Notes under the pieces: generated by a model | Seen by the model: the letters and a program-made list of their open reading frames with translations, nothing else | Told to the model about the DNA's origin: nothing | The model's database searches: none | In this document: piece after piece, positions 14,388 to 60,934 of the stretch | Position numbering within the stretch: the first letter of the stretch is position 1 | Layout of the letters: each line of letters begins with the position of its first letter | Position numbers and translations under genes: made by a program | Assembly: GCF_000318095.2 (NCBI RefSeq) | Contig: NZ_KB290717.1 | Location: forward strand, 429,930-493,929 | Source of the DNA: Alloprevotella sp. oral taxon 473 str. F0040 | Lineage (GTDB): Bacteria > Bacteroidota > Bacteroidia > Bacteroidales > Bacteroidaceae | Length of the DNA stretch: 64,000 bases | Direction of reading: 5' to 3'

Positions 14388-15269
14388 ATGGACAACACGT
14401 ATTTTCCCGAATCTGAACTCATCATCAATGGTGATGGTTCGATTTTTCACCTTCATCTTCTTCCAGAACAGCTTGCTGACAAGGTCATTCTCGTAGGTGA
14501 TCCTGGACGAGTGGCCTTAGTGGCCTCACATTTTGAAGAGAAAGAATGTGAAGTTGAAAGCCGTGAATTCAAAACAGTCACTGGCACATATCAAGGCAAG
14601 AGAATTACCGTACTCTCCACTGGCATCGGCTGTGACAACATTGACATTGTAATCAATGAACTAGATGCTTTAGCCAATATCGACTTTGCAACACGCCACG
14701 AAAAGCCCAACTTCCGTCAATTAGAACTTGTGCGCATCGGTACTTGTGGTGGACTACAAGCACATACCCCCGAAGGCACATTCATTGCTTCTCAGAAAAG
14801 CCTCGGCTTTGATGGTTTGCTTAATTTTTATGCTGGCCGCGATGAAGCATGCGACCTAGATTTCGAGAAAGCATTCCTAGCGCACATGCAATGGCAAGGA
14901 AGTCAATGCATCGCACACCCTTACTGCGTAGATAACAATGAAGAACTTCTGGACCGCATCGGACAAAACGACATGGTGCGTGGTGTAACTATTGCTTGTG
15001 GTGGTTTTTTCGGTCCTCAGGGACGTAGACTTCGCGTACCTCTTGCTGACCCTACAGCAAATGACAAAATCATGTCTTTCCGTCATGGCGACCTCTGTTT
15101 CACCAACTTCGAGATGGAAAGCAGTGCTCTCGCAGGTTTGGCCAAACTGATGGGACATAAAGCGATGACTTGCTGCATGGTAGTTGCCAATCGCGTAGCT
15201 GGCAAAGCCAATCCGAACTACAAGAATAGCATCGACTCATTGATTTCTCTCGTTCTTGAACGTATTTGA
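14388..15269 (+). CDS. udp: Uridine phosphorylase (nucleoside phosphorylase family)
   Basis: A 293-residue cytosolic enzyme cleaving uridine with phosphate to uracil and ribose-1-phosphate. PNP/UDP family landmarks: phosphate-binding 'ILVGDPGRV', 'STGIGCDNIDIVINEL', 'RIGTCGGLQ' and the ribose/base loop 'FTNFEMESSALAGLAKLMG'. It is slightly longer than E. coli Udp (253) and matches the Bacteroidales form. It could use uridine made by the cytidine deaminase at 542. An 8-bp inverted repeat, AGAAATCA/TGATTTCT (14323-14330 with 14344-14351), lies in the 86-bp leader and may be regulatory. A strong terminator follows at 15377. Confidence 0.9.
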   Translation: MDNTYFPESELIINGDGSIFHLHLLPEQLADKVILVGDPGRVALVASHFEEKECEVESREFKTVTGTYQGKRITVLSTGIGCDNIDIVINELDALANIDFATRHEKPNFRQLELVRIGTCGGLQAHTPEGTFIASQKSLGFDGLLNFYAGRDEACDLDFEKAFLAHMQWQGSQCIAHPYCVDNNEELLDRIGQNDMVRGVTIACGGFFGPQGRRLRVPLADPTANDKIMSFRHGDLCFTNFEMESSALAGLAKLMGHKAMTCCMVVANRVAGKANPNYKNSIDSLISLVLERI

Positions 15270-15840: not shown

Positions 15841-15952
15841 AGGGAGTTAATCACGTTTTCGTCGGAGAAGATATCAAAAATCTCAGAGACAATTTCTAAA
15901 AAGTAGGAGATAATCTTGAAAATGTCGGAGAGACTGGTGGCAGACCCTGAGA
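15841..15952 (+). repeat. Phased heptamer array B (six copies at exactly 21 bp)
   Basis: Heptamers start at 15841 (AGGGAGT), 15862 (TCGGAGA), 15883 (TCAGAGA), 15904 (TAGGAGA), 15925 (TCGGAGA) and 15946 (CCTGAGA). Each step is exactly 21 bp. A-runs of 4-5 bases sit between them at 15876, 15898 and 15919. The array is in the 3' untranslated region of the amylase gene, before the sus terminator. Otherwise the 15751-16132 stretch shows no gene. Confidence 0.6.
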
Positions 15953-16132: not shown

Positions 16133-18136
16133 TTAGAACATTTGTTTTTGGCCTTGTGCGTTGATATAGATTTGTCCTGCTTGGGGTTGCTCCACACGTT
16201 GTCCTTGAAGGTTGAACCATACGTTGGGAAGAACCGTTGGACGTAAAGGAGAAAGGTGTGTGACAACATCCGTTTCATCACGTACCACATACTTCCCTCC
16301 GCGCTGTTCTGTGGTAATCACGAAATAGCGATCACCTGTGATCTCCGTGACATCGACAGATTGTGGAGACCCATTGTCGGTAGAGAATACCACATTCACG
16401 AAATAATCCTTAGAGGTAATATCAAAGGTCTGATAGTTCCAGGTATATCCTTTCACCTCCTTCGTGTCCGTGATGGTTTTACCTGGCCAGTTGCCATTCA
16501 TATTGTTGTTGCCCTTGTTGTTCCAAACGTGGAAATTGAGCGAAGGCCAGTTGTTTTCATTGCGCACATGGATAGTCGCAGTATGTTCTACAAAAGGACG
16601 AATGGTATAGGTGCGCGATACCACATTGGAAACTTCGCCTTCTGCAGAAAGCACACCCACTTGCAACGTAGCATCTTGGGTGATGCTAATGTTTCCATCG
16701 GCGGGTACACGAGAAGATTGAGCAGTGGGAAGAGTGCCATCTGTGGTATAGACTAGCGTTTGTTCACTTTCTGACACACTGGTCACCTTTGCAGTAAACG
16801 CAGCTTCATATTCTCCCGAAGGTTTATCCAACAAGAGTGTTTTAGTGCTGCGAGAAAGGAAATAGGCACAATGCTGACCGCTGAGCACCTTTACATATTT
16901 TGTAGCATCAGGTGCGTAGTTCTCAGCCTCATCGCCTAAGACATAGAGCAGAGTGCCTTTGGTGCCCGCCACCGAAACGACATACTGTTTGGGTTCACGC
17001 GACACGATGGTTGGAACAGACGTATTAACAATGCCTGCTGCACGACGCACCTCAATCATCGCCTTAATAGCCTGCTTATGGTCGAGCCAATGACGGTAGA
17101 ATACACATGGAGTACCAGGCATGGCAAGGAGATAGGCATTAGCTGCAAGGGTGTCTTTCTTGATAGGATCAAGTGGTTCGCTAGCACTGCGCATTTGCGT
17201 GTCGTGATTCTCCACGAAAGTCACGGCGTATTGGCGGAATAGGCGAGAATTGATGAGAGGGGCATTACTGGCATTCTCTAGTTTGCTCCAGTCTCCACTA
17301 TTGGCAGCATCACGCACGGTGTAGCGGAAAGGGAAGTCGAAGGCCGCAGACTGCGGTACGTTGTTGACTTTTGTACCATTGACCCAAAGTTTTGTAGCAG
17401 TACTATTGTCCCAATACTCTCCCACACTGAATTGTGGTTGAACTGTTTGGTTATATTGAGCCACATACTCAGGAGCAAAGCCTTTGACCATATCGTAGCG
17501 GAACCCTGCATAGCCTAGGTCTTCAAGGAGAAACTTGAGGTAAGCATTGTAGTTGTTGCGCACATTGTCACTTTTGTGGTCGATATCGCGACATCCTGGC
17601 CAACCTTCGCCCGTATCTTTGTTGCTACTGAGGGACTGACGATGGCTTGCTGCCCACGTTGCCGTCTGACCACCATCGTCGTCACTTACGATATCGCTAG
17701 GCAACATCTGATAATCTACACCTTTGTAGGTCTCTTTAGGATAATCGGTCCACGCCCCATTCACGCCGAGATTATTGCGATGGTTGATGACAACATCAGC
17801 TATGATGCCAGTGCCTTTCGCCTTGTAGGTCTTAATCATCGAACGCAATTCAGCTTCAGTGCCAAATGAACTGTTTTGATTAAAGAGATAGACGGGAAGA
17901 TAACCCATCACATTATCGTTCGTATTGCAGTTTCCACTTTGAGGCACCCAGATGAGTTGAAAGTATGGCGCAATTTCGCTGCTTCGGGCTTCGAGCTTTG
18001 TCCAACGCGAATCGTTGAACGAGTCCCAATAAAAGCCCTGCAGCATGACCCCTTCATAGGCAGCGGGCCAACCTTGTGCTTGAGATTGAAGAGAAACTCC
18101 AGCAGAAAGGGCGAGGAGAAGTAGAGATTTCTTCAT
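16133..18136 (-). CDS. Secreted GH13 alpha-amylase with CBM26-like domain (SusG counterpart)
   Basis: A 667-residue exported amylase. The start is placed at MKKSLLLLALSAG, giving a type I signal peptide ending ...QSQAQ. There is no lipobox Cys, unlike SusG. GH13 motifs: 'DVVINH' 114-119, nucleophile D215 in 'GFRYD', acid/base E240 in 'VGEYW', and D312 in 'ENHD'. Residues ~440-512 look like a chitobiase C-terminal-type beta-sandwich ('YTTDGTLPT'). Residues ~518-612 resemble a CBM26 starch-binding module with exposed Trp ('NFHVWNNKGN...NWPG'). The last ~30 residues ('VWFNLQGQRVEQPQAGQIYI') resemble the short C-terminal element of secreted Prevotella proteins. It is the last sus gene, set off from the previous one by a terminator-like hairpin. 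Confidence 0.92.
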   Translation of the reverse strand: MKKSLLLLALSAGVSLQSQAQGWPAAYEGVMLQGFYWDSFNDSRWTKLEARSSEIAPYFQLIWVPQSGNCNTNDNVMGYLPVYLFNQNSSFGTEAELRSMIKTYKAKGTGIIADVVINHRNNLGVNGAWTDYPKETYKGVDYQMLPSDIVSDDDGGQTATWAASHRQSLSSNKDTGEGWPGCRDIDHKSDNVRNNYNAYLKFLLEDLGYAGFRYDMVKGFAPEYVAQYNQTVQPQFSVGEYWDNSTATKLWVNGTKVNNVPQSAAFDFPFRYTVRDAANSGDWSKLENASNAPLINSRLFRQYAVTFVENHDTQMRSASEPLDPIKKDTLAANAYLLAMPGTPCVFYRHWLDHKQAIKAMIEVRRAAGIVNTSVPTIVSREPKQYVVSVAGTKGTLLYVLGDEAENYAPDATKYVKVLSGQHCAYFLSRSTKTLLLDKPSGEYEAAFTAKVTSVSESEQTLVYTTDGTLPTAQSSRVPADGNISITQDATLQVGVLSAEGEVSNVVSRTYTIRPFVEHTATIHVRNENNWPSLNFHVWNNKGNNNMNGNWPGKTITDTKEVKGYTWNYQTFDITSKDYFVNVVFSTDNGSPQSVDVTEITGDRYFVITTEQRGGKYVVRDETDVVTHLSPLRPTVLPNVWFNLQGQRVEQPQAGQIYINAQGQKQMF

Positions 18137-18227
18137 ACGTATGTAAAAATGATTAGGGACACAGCGGAAATGTGAAATCAAAAATCCATTCGTCCGTGTT
18201 GTCCGCCTAGTGATATCTTAGAAAATA

Positions 18228-37968: not shown

Positions 37969-38169
37969 GTCGCATTTATTCAATACACAATCTCATCATT
38001 TTAAGAAAACTCAATATATTTCGCGATAGAATTTAACACGAATGCCACAAATCTCCACAATCTGTACGCATTGAGCGCAATCATCACAAAGAAATATCTA
38101 CTAAATCGCAACAGAAAAACGCAGAAAAACAGAAATATAGAACAGACGATGCTCAACAAATCGAAATTA

Positions 38170-38262
38170 TCTCCCATTTTATGCAGGAATATCTCGCAAG
38201 GAGTATAGAGTTTTCTCCTAGAAAACTGAAAAAAACTCCAAGCTTTTGTTAGAAACTTCCGA
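38170..38262 (-). repeat. Phased heptamer array C (five copies, 21-22 bp steps, inverted)
   Basis: On the plus strand heptamers start at 38170 (TCTCCCA), 38192 (TCTCGCA), 38214 (TCTCCTA), 38235 (ACTCCAA) and 38256 (CTTCCGA), with steps 22, 22, 21, 21. These are complements of the TCGGAGA motif of arrays A, B and D. The near edge is 270 bp upstream of the sensor-regulator start. Apart from this and the sensor-regulator promoter, the 37969-38531 stretch shows no gene. Confidence 0.5.
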
Positions 38263-38444
38263 CGCCTTCTCTAAAAGGCTTACTTTTTCGATTTTAGAAC
38301 CTGCAATTCATGTATAAGGCAAAGCTAAAAGTATGAAAACTCATGCTATATTAGCCCTATTGATTTAACAGATATGACTTTAGGAATCACTAAATTTCAT
38401 TGCGTATCAAAGGAATATTTACGTAGAAAATATGTGGTTAGATA

Positions 38445-57262: not shown

Positions 57263-57376
57263 ACCGAGAGATTGTTCATAGGCTAAGAGAAATGACATAA
57301 AAAAGTCGGAGAATTGTCCTTAAAATCTCGGAGAAAGATAAAAATATCTCGGAGAATTTCGCAAAAAACTCCGAGA
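57263..57376 (+). repeat. Phased heptamer array D (six copies, 21-22 bp steps)
   Basis: Heptamers start at 57263 (ACCGAGA), 57284 (TAAGAGA), 57306, 57328 and 57349 (all TCGGAGA) and 57370 (TCCGAGA); steps are 21, 22, 22, 21, 21. A-runs lie between copies. The array occupies the middle of the 57131-57514 gap, 287 bp upstream of the secreted-protein start and 3' of the nuclease-helicase gene. I see nothing else in the gap. Confidence 0.6.
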
Positions 57377-57514
57377 TAAATTTGAACTTCTGGATGATTT
57401 GTGATTATCTCCACGAAAATCACTTAAACAAGACCTAGAGAAGACTTTAAAAAACAAAGGGGTAGGCTTCTCCCAAGCACTTCCGTTTCTCTAGAACAGA
57501 AGTCCAAACTCTGA

Positions 57515-60500
57515 TTATGTTTTTAATTTACCAATGTCTCCTCTCGGAACTTCAGCAATCAATTTAGCAAACAGGGGCACTGATTCTAAAATTTCAGGAT
57601 TACCCACGAGCAAAGTACGTTCTCTCGCTCTGGTAAGTGCCACATTAAGTTTCCTATCTATTAGCAGCCCTTGCTGGTCTATAAACTGGGAATCACAAAG
57701 GAAGCTCAATTGTGAAGGTCGACTCACTGTGAATCCATAGATAATGACATTCTTCTCTGAACCTTGAAATCGTTCCACTGTATCTATCGTCACGTTGGCC
57801 AAAACAGGATAAGCAGAAGTTTGCAAAAGACTTCTCACCATAGTAATCTGATGTCGATACGGAACTATAATTCCCAGTTCCTTATCCAAGTCAAATGGAA
57901 CTCCTCGATGCTGTATCTCTTTATAGATGTGTTCCGCCAGATGAACGATTAATTGAGCCTCATCCAAATTCAGTTTAGCCGAAGGAATTCCAGCTTGTTG
58001 AGTTTTAGTATCACTATTCTTAGGACAACTCTTCCTTGAGGTAACACTCAGCAAATCACTATCAGAAGAGGGTGTGCAAGTATAAAATAAGACTCTAGGC
58101 TGAGGAATAGCAAGCACCTGATGCTGCAAACCACAAGCTTGCAACTGTCCATTATAAAATTGCTTGTTCGCAAACTCAGCTACCTCTGGATGCATGCGGC
58201 CTTGCTTCGTAAACTCATGGATGCAACACTTGGGCACACTATGATAAAGACGTTCAAACAAAGATTTACGACAATCATCCAAACCTATAGTCTTCAATTC
58301 TTCTTCAGACACTCGGCTGTCCTGCGGTGTCTGCTGTACCACGGCAGGCAATTGTTTGTGATCACCAATCAACACGAAACGGCGGATGGCTAATTCCTCA
58401 TTCTCGCCTGCCATCAATAGAGGAAGCAAATGAGGTTCTAACAACTGTGAAGCCTCATCGACAATGGCTAGAGAAAAACGTTTACGCATGAACAAAGCAG
58501 TCATCCCCGAGAGCGAAGCTACAGTTCCTACGAGAATTCGTGTGCTTCGAATCAATTCCCCAACCTTATTGACATCGGACAATTGAGAAACCTTGTGCTC
58601 TAACAAATACTGATGATACAGGGGATCACAATTGTGCTTATTGCCCACTCGGAGAAAATCAATTTCATCTTTTGCGAGCTTACTACAGATTTCATCGACT
58701 GCACGATTGGTATACGCCGCTAACAAGACATTGCAATCAACATCACTAGCCAGTTCTTCACGCAAAATTGACATCAACCCGAAAGAGGTTTTCCCTGTAC
58801 CAGGAGGCCCTACTAACAGAAAAAAGTCTCTCGCCTGCTTAGCCTTAAGCACCATCATATTTCTCTCATCATCTTGATGGTCAAGCACTAGAACTTGAGT
58901 CTCATCCACCAATGAAAGAGAAGGATTTAACAACACCTCTCTTCGATGTTCTGATCCAGAGAGAAAAGAAAACAGACCTCGAAACAAAGAAGTAGAGGCT
59001 GAATCCATAAAATCCTTTTCAATTGCCCACAAACGTCCAGGTCTAGTGTCAAACACCACTGAATTGGTTTGTGGGGCACGCAATTGTAACATGATTTTCT
59101 CCGAAGATATAGCAATAATTGTTGCTCGAAAGACAAGGCCTTTTCGCATATCTGGCGCGAAATGCTGATCGTAGGAATACAACACAACAATGTCACCTTC
59201 TCTAAAATTTGGAGCTATGATCAACTGATTCTCGGTTTGTGGAAGTTTCAAACACAACGATTCTACTGCACCATCTTCATTACACACACAACCTCCTGGT
59301 TCTGCAAAAGACAAATTCGCTATGATGTCACCCACTTCTTGCTTCTCTTCAAAAGTAGCATTCCAAGCAGAAGCAAATCCACTACACTCGCGTTGCTGAT
59401 TGCCCACCATCCCCAAACGACGCTCAAGCGAGAGGAAACGATGAAATCTATTGAAATAACTGCGTGCCAACTCGTTGGACCGACGATACACTCCGATAAA
59501 AGACTCTAGTGCAGGGCGTTTATAGCTCGACCAAAGCTTGCTAGCCCCTCCATCTGTAAAACTATCTATATCAAAGTGATCGAGATAATCAGCAATACCT
59601 TCGGTAGAAAACAGAAGTTCTCGTGCCACAATTTCATTACGTATTTGTAGGGCTTCACGAAGATAGTCCATGATTGTTTCGATACGCATCAATCCATATT
59701 CAGGAGAATACTTAGAATAAAGCAGGTAGGCGCGCATATCATTGAAGCGCACCTTGTGGTTAAAATGAAGAATTGCTCGATAAAGTTGCAACTGAATGTT
59801 ATGAGAAAGTTGTGCACGGCGTGTCCATTCATCCATTTTCCCACTCTTCTGCTCTATAACAGTCGTAAAATCGCGACTCAACAAGTCCATACGCCCTTGT
59901 AATCCCAACAATTCACAGAAGAAGGTCGGCTCAAGTAGAACATCAGAAAGCGCATTCAGATGCAGATCATTGCGCAACTGATGCTGCACCATACTCCTAA
60001 GATGCAATTGTTGACTTTGAGCATTGATGTGAAAATCACGACGTCCTTCATTTGATGCAAGCTCCGTACAAGTGTAACACTGCACAGCATTTTGCGCAAA
60101 GAAACGGCGGGCTGTGTCAGGGTAAGAAGATTCATAACCATGCAATTCCTCGTCAAGCATTTGACCAGCCAAATGTCCCAAGAGAATCGCACTAGTAACT
60201 GGCACTGGTTGCAATCTATTGACTACATCATATTGTGAACAAACCCCTGTAGCCTGAAAACAATTAGCTACCGTTGTCACTGGTATGAGATAATCGGGTT
60301 CCAGTACGATGAGTGTGGGTTCAAGAGCTTCATCCACCCATCGCGTATCCACTAAATTCAGATTGGAGTTCTTCTTGAGGAGTGGAAGTAAAGCTGTAAA
60401 ATCATTTTTATCATCTGTCCTACTTCTAAGTCGTACTTTCTGCTCTAGACCTTCGTTAACGCAAAATACGAGCAGATAGTCCTCGTGTTTCTCTAATACT

Positions 60501-60934
60501 ACAACACGAAAATCACCTACGAAACGTCCTTTTCTCCGTCTCACCTCTGGTAACAACTGAGGAAGTCTGTCTTTTAATTGAACTGGAATCTGAACCTTCG
60601 TGCGCCAAGAAACCATACGTGCCAAACGCAGCATATCATAAGGAAAATCTGCTTGTAACACATTCTCATTCGCTCCAGATAACCCCTCCATTCGGACACG
60701 ATAATCATTGAGACCAACGTAAATCTGCTCGTCTGATGCTTTGCTTTCCTGAAATAAATAGTGAAGCTTAGAGAAAGTCCCAGAAAGATACACACCTGCA
60801 TCACTAGTTTCTTCCCTAAGAAATTCTTGAAACAACAGGTAACCACTCTTACAACGCTCATGAATAGGAAGATTAACGCGAAGCAGCTGGTTCAATATTT
60901 CTTGATAATAATAAGAAGCAAGAACTGTAGACAT
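57515..60934 (-). CDS. Dna2-like nuclease-helicase (PD-(D/E)XK plus SF1B helicase)
   Basis: An 1139-residue protein, probably for DNA end or flap processing. The middle contains a Cas4/Dna2-type PD-(D/E)XK nuclease: 'GLQGRMDLL' (D350), 'VIEQKSGK' (E361, K363) and 'IQLQLYRA' (Q381, Y385). The SF1B helicase follows: Walker A 'GPPGTGKTS' at 709-717, 'AYTNRAVDEI' (Ia), 'IVDEASQLLEP' (II, D826-E827), 'IGDHKQLPAVV' (III), 'QGRMHPEVAEFAN' (IV) and 'ERFQGSEKNVIIYG' / 'NVALTRAR' (V/VI). The first ~280 residues show no family I recognise. An iron-sulphur cysteine set is not evident. Bacteroidales homologues have the same size. It is transcribed after the recF terminator. Confidence 0.85.
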   Translation of the reverse strand: MSTVLASYYYQEILNQLLRVNLPIHERCKSGYLLFQEFLREETSDAGVYLSGTFSKLHYLFQESKASDEQIYVGLNDYRVRMEGLSGANENVLQADFPYDMLRLARMVSWRTKVQIPVQLKDRLPQLLPEVRRRKGRFVGDFRVVVLEKHEDYLLVFCVNEGLEQKVRLRSRTDDKNDFTALLPLLKKNSNLNLVDTRWVDEALEPTLIVLEPDYLIPVTTVANCFQATGVCSQYDVVNRLQPVPVTSAILLGHLAGQMLDEELHGYESSYPDTARRFFAQNAVQCYTCTELASNEGRRDFHINAQSQQLHLRSMVQHQLRNDLHLNALSDVLLEPTFFCELLGLQGRMDLLSRDFTTVIEQKSGKMDEWTRRAQLSHNIQLQLYRAILHFNHKVRFNDMRAYLLYSKYSPEYGLMRIETIMDYLREALQIRNEIVARELLFSTEGIADYLDHFDIDSFTDGGASKLWSSYKRPALESFIGVYRRSNELARSYFNRFHRFLSLERRLGMVGNQQRECSGFASAWNATFEEKQEVGDIIANLSFAEPGGCVCNEDGAVESLCLKLPQTENQLIIAPNFREGDIVVLYSYDQHFAPDMRKGLVFRATIIAISSEKIMLQLRAPQTNSVVFDTRPGRLWAIEKDFMDSASTSLFRGLFSFLSGSEHRREVLLNPSLSLVDETQVLVLDHQDDERNMMVLKAKQARDFFLLVGPPGTGKTSFGLMSILREELASDVDCNVLLAAYTNRAVDEICSKLAKDEIDFLRVGNKHNCDPLYHQYLLEHKVSQLSDVNKVGELIRSTRILVGTVASLSGMTALFMRKRFSLAIVDEASQLLEPHLLPLLMAGENEELAIRRFVLIGDHKQLPAVVQQTPQDSRVSEEELKTIGLDDCRKSLFERLYHSVPKCCIHEFTKQGRMHPEVAEFANKQFYNGQLQACGLQHQVLAIPQPRVLFYTCTPSSDSDLLSVTSRKSCPKNSDTKTQQAGIPSAKLNLDEAQLIVHLAEHIYKEIQHRGVPFDLDKELGIIVPYRHQITMVRSLLQTSAYPVLANVTIDTVERFQGSEKNVIIYGFTVSRPSQLSFLCDSQFIDQQGLLIDRKLNVALTRARERTLLVGNPEILESVPLFAKLIAEVPRGDIGKLKT

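Follow-up and report, generated by a model that had tools for sequence, protein, structure and literature searches.

Evenly spaced intergenic arrays of a 21-bp palindromic unit in an Alloprevotella genome

Plasmid iterons and par centromere arrays are tandem binding sites of about 20-22 bp set two helical turns apart. REP and BIME elements are dispersed intergenic palindromes that go with RAYT transposases in Enterobacteria and others, and they are tied to gyrase in E. coli (PMC3733652, PMC2817692). BrickBuilt of Porphyromonas gingivalis is a minisatellite/MITE with a 23-nt unit, AGAYCATARTATCCTCTCRTRTG, and inverted repeats like those of the IS5 family (PMC4596501). There are 23 matS sites in Ter and 50 SlmA sites, and these are single sites restricted to macrodomains (PMC3116907, PMC4726725). 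A literature search found nothing on arrays of the kind described here.

The window is the whole 64,000-nucleotide stretch introduced above, which is 429,930-493,929 of contig C17. The draft genome it comes from (G000) is 2.55 Mb in 24 contigs and 96.7% complete, and some of its N runs fall within arrays or inverted-repeat elements. Gene positions are simple ORF calls. Array statistics come from 1.204 Mb of contiguous stretches, about half of the genome. A sequence-only reading of the window had reported heptamers at 15841, 15862, 15883, 15904, 15925 and 15946. All six are present at exact 21-bp steps. It had also counted four arrays, and a lattice PWM recovers each of them (Table 1). No array scoring at least 19 was found with this PWM in 40 Markov-simulated windows.

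Table 1. Arrays in the window, and loci of a second tandem family elsewhere in the genome
Feature	Position	Unit centres	Score	Flanks and remarks
Array A	1335-1376	1345, 1366	20.5	Two clear units; cytidine deaminase ORF / PcrA/UvrD helicase ORF
Array B (six heptamers)	15841-15952	15864, 15885, 15906, 15927	44.9	Six units in register, 21-bp steps; detector core 15854-15937; convergent genes, phosphorylase 14388-15269 (+) / alpha-amylase 16133-18181 (-)
Array C (weak)	38166-38270	38218, 38239, 38260	19.4	Scored units span 38208-38270; mutL / hybrid two-component regulator
Array D	57298-57382	57308, 57330, 57351, 57372	62.7	3' of helicase gene 57515-60934
(A/C)GTTAGA family, L156	C14:8420
(A/C)GTTAGA family, L160	C14:80944
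(A/C)GTTAGA family, L163	C14:157321
(A/C)GTTAGA family, L171	C14:302725
(A/C)GTTAGA family, L185	C16:183737
(A/C)GTTAGA family, L198	C10:81681

A lattice of palindromic units

The unit consensus is nAAAAAnTCTC-S-GAGAnTTTTn. This is a palindrome: the PWM of 119 units is symmetric around TCTC-S-GAGA, with A/T tracts on the flanks. The sequence-only reading had described a directional heptamer, and the palindromic core describes the motif better. The lattice is exactly 21 bp, which is two helical turns. Across 824 kb (stretches of C14 and C16 plus the window) same-strand motifs recur at 21, 42, 63 and 84 bp, with the opposite half-sites in phase. An array usually has 4-6 units, modally 5, and covers about 105 bp. 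When the half-site GTC replaces CTC the centre is nearly always G, which completes GGAGA. Array C has weaker in-register units at 38197 and 38176, read by eye, which carry its left edge to about 38166.

Genome-wide there are 179 pairs of TCNGAGA motifs with a step of 20-23 bp, and the reversed pattern gives 1. There are 16 three-unit runs and 0 in the reversed control. The sequence-only reading had staked itself on an excess of such spaced runs, and since the runs exceed the controls it survives its own test. The lattice detector is the unit PWM chained at 21 bp. C14, C16 and the window served as its training set, to which neither contig C10 nor the part of C17 preceding the window contributed. 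Its scores are bimodal, with 66 arrays at 20 or above in 1.204 Mb and 0 in reversed sequence. Contig C10 alone holds 15 of the 66. At this density the genome total would be roughly 140 arrays.

There is also a second dispersed intergenic tandem family in G000. It is built on the heptamer (A/C)GTTAGA at lags of 14, 21 and 28 without the 21-bp palindrome.

Even spacing and conserved positions

The arrays repel one another along the chromosome. Their spacing in the G000 sample has a mean of 18.0 kb (SD 8.0) and a minimum of 6.0 kb. The CV is 0.445, against 0.76-0.86 for random placement in the real intergenic gaps, and a CV this low arose in 0 of 3000 simulations under each of four nulls. One distance below 8 kb was observed when 15-20 were expected. 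Inside the window the distances from A to D are about 14.5, 22.3 and 19.1 kb, and array C falls in what would otherwise be a 41-kb array-free gap. The median length of intergenic gaps is 728 bp for those with arrays and 135 bp for all.

The tests of spacing cover two closely related species. The second, G153, is of the same genus and is represented by a 2.76-Mb contig whose median protein identity to G000 is 92% (reciprocal best hits of at least 50%). Over 800 kb with 37 arrays its CV is 0.553 against 0.87-0.93 expected (P about 0.001), with 1 distance below 8 kb versus about 10 expected. Over its whole chromosome there are 3 short distances versus 14.9 expected, among the matches listed.

Positions are conserved between these species as well. 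Among syntenic gaps 100 bp or longer, 12 have arrays in both genomes, 1 in G153 only, 0 in G000 only and 76 in neither (Fisher P 5e-14). The G153-only class rises to 2 when short gaps are counted. Every G000 array in a gap syntenic with G153 is kept (12/12), all four window arrays included. The counterpart of array B scores 91 and that of array A has 4 units. With 66 arrays in the sample, all this bears out the earlier suggestion of a dispersed intergenic element family. Identity between the two genomes overall is 0.79 in the cores and 0.70 in both spacers and flanks. In the more diverged gaps the spacers are at 0.44-0.59 and the flanks at 0.55-0.64, and the cores and usually the register persist. 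Core positions -2, -1, +1 and +2 are the best conserved (0.80-0.90).

G153 has a 51-kb stretch (C6:392-443 kb; L232, L273-L275) between blocks that are contiguous in G000, with arrays of its own spaced as elsewhere. We considered a mobile element and rejected it: the genes searched are mostly housekeeping (tRNA synthetases, RF3, ribonucleotide reductase). The stretch is probably a rearrangement.

Because the arrays are evenly placed between genes and kept in a related species, they point to an undescribed set of putative docking sites for proteins, with a possible part in organising the chromosome. We hold with moderate confidence that they are DNA-level docking arrays for a putative dimeric protein with an architectural role. 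The protein binding, the dimer and the role are what we infer. The multimeric protein-binding site that the sequence-only reading had offered agrees with the exact 21-bp lattice, the palindromic core, the intergenic location and the syntenic conservation. Each array would be a nucleation site on duplex DNA for a palindrome-recognising dimer. Since the units are two helical turns apart, about five dimers would lie side by side on one DNA face. Neighbouring sites keep a distance of about 17-20 kb, seldom falling below about 6-7 kb, and would in this way punctuate the chromosome. The likeliest role would be to anchor or bridge chromosomal loops, to mark topological domains or to space out a nucleoid function. 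It could also be that the even spacing stems from how the arrays spread and not from function.

Companion inverted repeats and competing readings

A second element accompanies the arrays. It consists of inverted 22-mers, TTTTTGCTTTCACAACCTTCAC ... GTGAAGGTTGTGAAAGCAAAAA. The G000 sample has 27 clusters of them, all within 900 bp of an array, and G153 has 5 pairs, all at arrays. In total 32/32 copies adjoin or surround an array. The array lies within the pair in some cases and 110-270 bp to its side in the others. The whole G000 genome has 45 forward and 42 reverse boxes, perfect in 71 of 87 cases, and the rest of the inverted-repeat element has drifted to about 50% identity. In most pairs, runs of alternating CG/CA lie on the outer side of the boxes. 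The distances between the arms fall into clusters at 178, 188-190, 199-201, 211, 271-273, 292-293, 314-315 and 336-337 bp, and their best period in the range 8-14 bp is 10.4 bp (R 0.71). Phasing at 10.5 bp has a naive Rayleigh P of 2e-8, but the distinct distance classes alone give P 0.27. Since they are not significant and the copies may be related, helical phasing of the arms is suggestive. The distance from the nearer box to the start of a nested array is often 52.5 or 73.5 bp, equal to 2.5 or 3.5 array units. The window and the remaining C17 sample have no 22-mer pair, and a literature search met the 22-mer in no relevant paper. At some sites a second protein may bind the invariant 22-bp boxes, an inverted pair that would lie on the same helical face and either enclose the array or stand next to it. 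This companion, the even spacing and the positional conservation are all new relative to the sequence-only reading.

The inverted repeats raise another scenario. The arrays could be cargo or ends of a miniature transposon with target immunity, as in Tn7 and Mu, and the spacing would then record insertion instead of function. The ends of Tn7 and Mu have repeated transposase sites of about 22 bp, and immunity would impose a minimum distance. About a third to half of the arrays are in or beside an inverted-repeat element. Several nested copies are 60-77% identical, so arrays were copied along with it. However, 31 of the 66 arrays have no inverted repeat, and the 12/12 syntenic arrays kept in two species mean there was almost no gain or loss. 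The boxes have stayed perfect as the remainder of the element decayed, which dead transposon ends would not do. We recognised no autonomous copy, the inverted pairs measured all being 118-637 bp apart, and no insertion element matching the 22-mers was found. Viral contigs have no 22-mer and nothing of the array core beyond scattered single pairs; plasmids have no match to array A. Target immunity accounts for spacing, but not for stability and turnover at fixed sites. We consider a transposon origin unlikely.

Supercoil domains have a size of the same order as the array spacing. The arrays might be strong wrapping sites for gyrase or a topoisomerase that set supercoiling at 17-kb intervals, in the manner of E. 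coli BIME-2. The gyrase motif is 130 bp with a 10.75-bp GC periodicity (PMC6379681), and the array length is near this. G000 arrays have GC periodicity at 10.5 bp, along with AA/TT phasing at 10.5 bp that is twice that of other intergenic DNA. Of the intergenic Z-DNA-like alternating runs in the sample 46 of 47 are near arrays, most of them as part of inverted-repeat elements. But the 10.5-bp GC phasing was not found in the relatives' arrays, which have other cores, and an enzyme that wraps DNA with little regard to sequence needs no conserved 9-bp palindrome. We find this scenario improbable. The same data divide the curved DNA proposed by the sequence-only reading: the AA/TT phasing leaves curvature as a possible contributor, and the lack of GC phasing in the relatives' arrays counts against it.

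The operators of a large regulon would also be palindromic and intergenic, and some arrays are within 300 bp upstream of a gene. The sequence-only reading had put them 270-316 bp upstream with the motif toward the gene. This is not general, since all orientations occur, distances to the start codon run from 0 to 1177 bp and array B sits between convergent genes. The 48 arrays in clean gaps comprise 13 tandem on the plus strand, 13 tandem on the minus strand, 13 convergent, 8 divergent and one at a contig end. These contexts are all near background proportions, convergent gaps included, and nothing would require operators to be evenly distributed along a chromosome. We give ordinary operator arrays little chance of being right.

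Being palindromic, the arrays can fold on either strand (z-score about -3.3 on each), but transcribed hairpin ladders such as terminators, mRNA 3' ends or a small RNA are very improbable, as the would-be paired bases around spacer or core do not covary (except in one conserved module, GTCGGAGATTTCnnnnGAAATCTCCGAC), the signal is equal on both strands, Rfam has no match to the arrays, and transcription units are far more frequent than the arrays, of which there is one per about 17 kb. The structured RNA end of the sequence-only reading falls with the absent covariation and with a location that is independent of gene ends. The absent covariation instead favours recognition of double-stranded DNA.

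Relatives and known systems

Intergenic arrays of the same 21-23-bp pitch also occur in more distant Bacteroidales. The G000 array model has matches in G198 and G185 and weakly in G114, one weak match in G015 and essentially none in G043. Motif-free intergenic self-similarity peaks at lags of 21-23 in G000, G153, G114, G015, a Tannerellaceae MAG and the Prevotella MAG RGIG1607. G000 and RGIG1607 show additional heptamer lags of 14 and 28. A contig scan for TCGGAGA triples revealed many arrays in RGIG1607 and Tannerellaceae Cf509_bin38; among the matches listed, most are protein-coding or simple repeats. The relatives with a 21-23-bp pitch, a thin sample, have other palindromic cores, several per genome. 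Since these lags are shared by different cores, pitch and symmetry seem to be more general than sequence. This variety of cores counts against our main reading, since it is hard to reconcile with one conserved protein. We offer, as a tentative extension, that Bacteroidales chromosomes may be punctuated every ~17-20 kb by arrays conserved in architecture and divergent in sequence. Their cores would co-evolve with the putative binder, and in this lineage a second phased box pair would complete the complex.

Several individual loci are worth recording. In a Tannerellaceae MAG (G201, C11:63.7-63.95 kb, L256) there are more than 10 TCTCSGAGA-type units at 21-22 bp, and other arrays on the same contig have 23-bp palindromic units. 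In a complete genome of the same genus (G082, C1:800001-900000, L243-L247) about nine gaps per 100 kb hold long composite intergenic repeats on a 9/18-bp GAAGTTAAC/GTTAACTTC lattice. The arrays L294 (G185), L300 (G198) and L293 (G114), which lie downstream of the helicase gene, have a 21-22-bp pitch and unrelated cores (TTCTCACC-GGTGAGAA, TTTTCTCATCGCGATGAGAAAA, ATAAACCAAAGTTTGGTTTAT). We rejected deep positional conservation downstream of the window helicase: clear arrays are present in 3 of 13 genomes (G114, G185, G198), which is not clearly above the long-gap expectation.

Evenly spaced, position-conserved sites at about 17 kb are what one would expect of a sequence-coded system for chromosome folding or supercoil domains. 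To our knowledge, none has been described in Bacteroidales. Since the arrays are short, numerous and easily deleted or tagged, they allow a direct test of whether sequence fixes bacterial topological domains. If the spacing reflects transposition immunity instead, they would preserve an unusually clear trace of it in a genome.

The arrays resemble REP and BIME in being dispersed intergenic palindromes, and REP/BIME are likewise high in copy and tandem or mosaic. However, REP are 20-40-bp hairpins, whereas the arrays are a strict 21-bp lattice of 9-bp cores, evenly spaced. They are not a REP/RAYT system. G000 has 0 matches to the RAYT domain (Y1_Tnp, PF01797), which was found in 5 of 14 control genomes, and the unit PWM lacks a GTAG/CGTC tag beside a 20-40-bp hairpin. 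BrickBuilt is also from Bacteroidales and is an intergenic tandem repeat of about 23 bp within an inverted-repeat element, but its ends are of the IS5 family where G000 has the 22-mers. The G000 consensus differs from the BrickBuilt unit, so the two are not the same. Iterons and par sites share the tandem spacing of two helical turns, but they occupy one locus per replicon and the arrays about 140 chromosomal loci in G000. If our best explanation is right, the closest likeness in function would be to matS/MatP, SlmA and Noc, where a protein that organises the chromosome or division reads dispersed short palindromes. Like those, the arrays are dispersed palindromic sites, and their positions are kept between species. 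The difference is that matS, SlmA and Noc use single, restricted sites, whereas here there are multi-unit arrays at even distances on every sampled contig.
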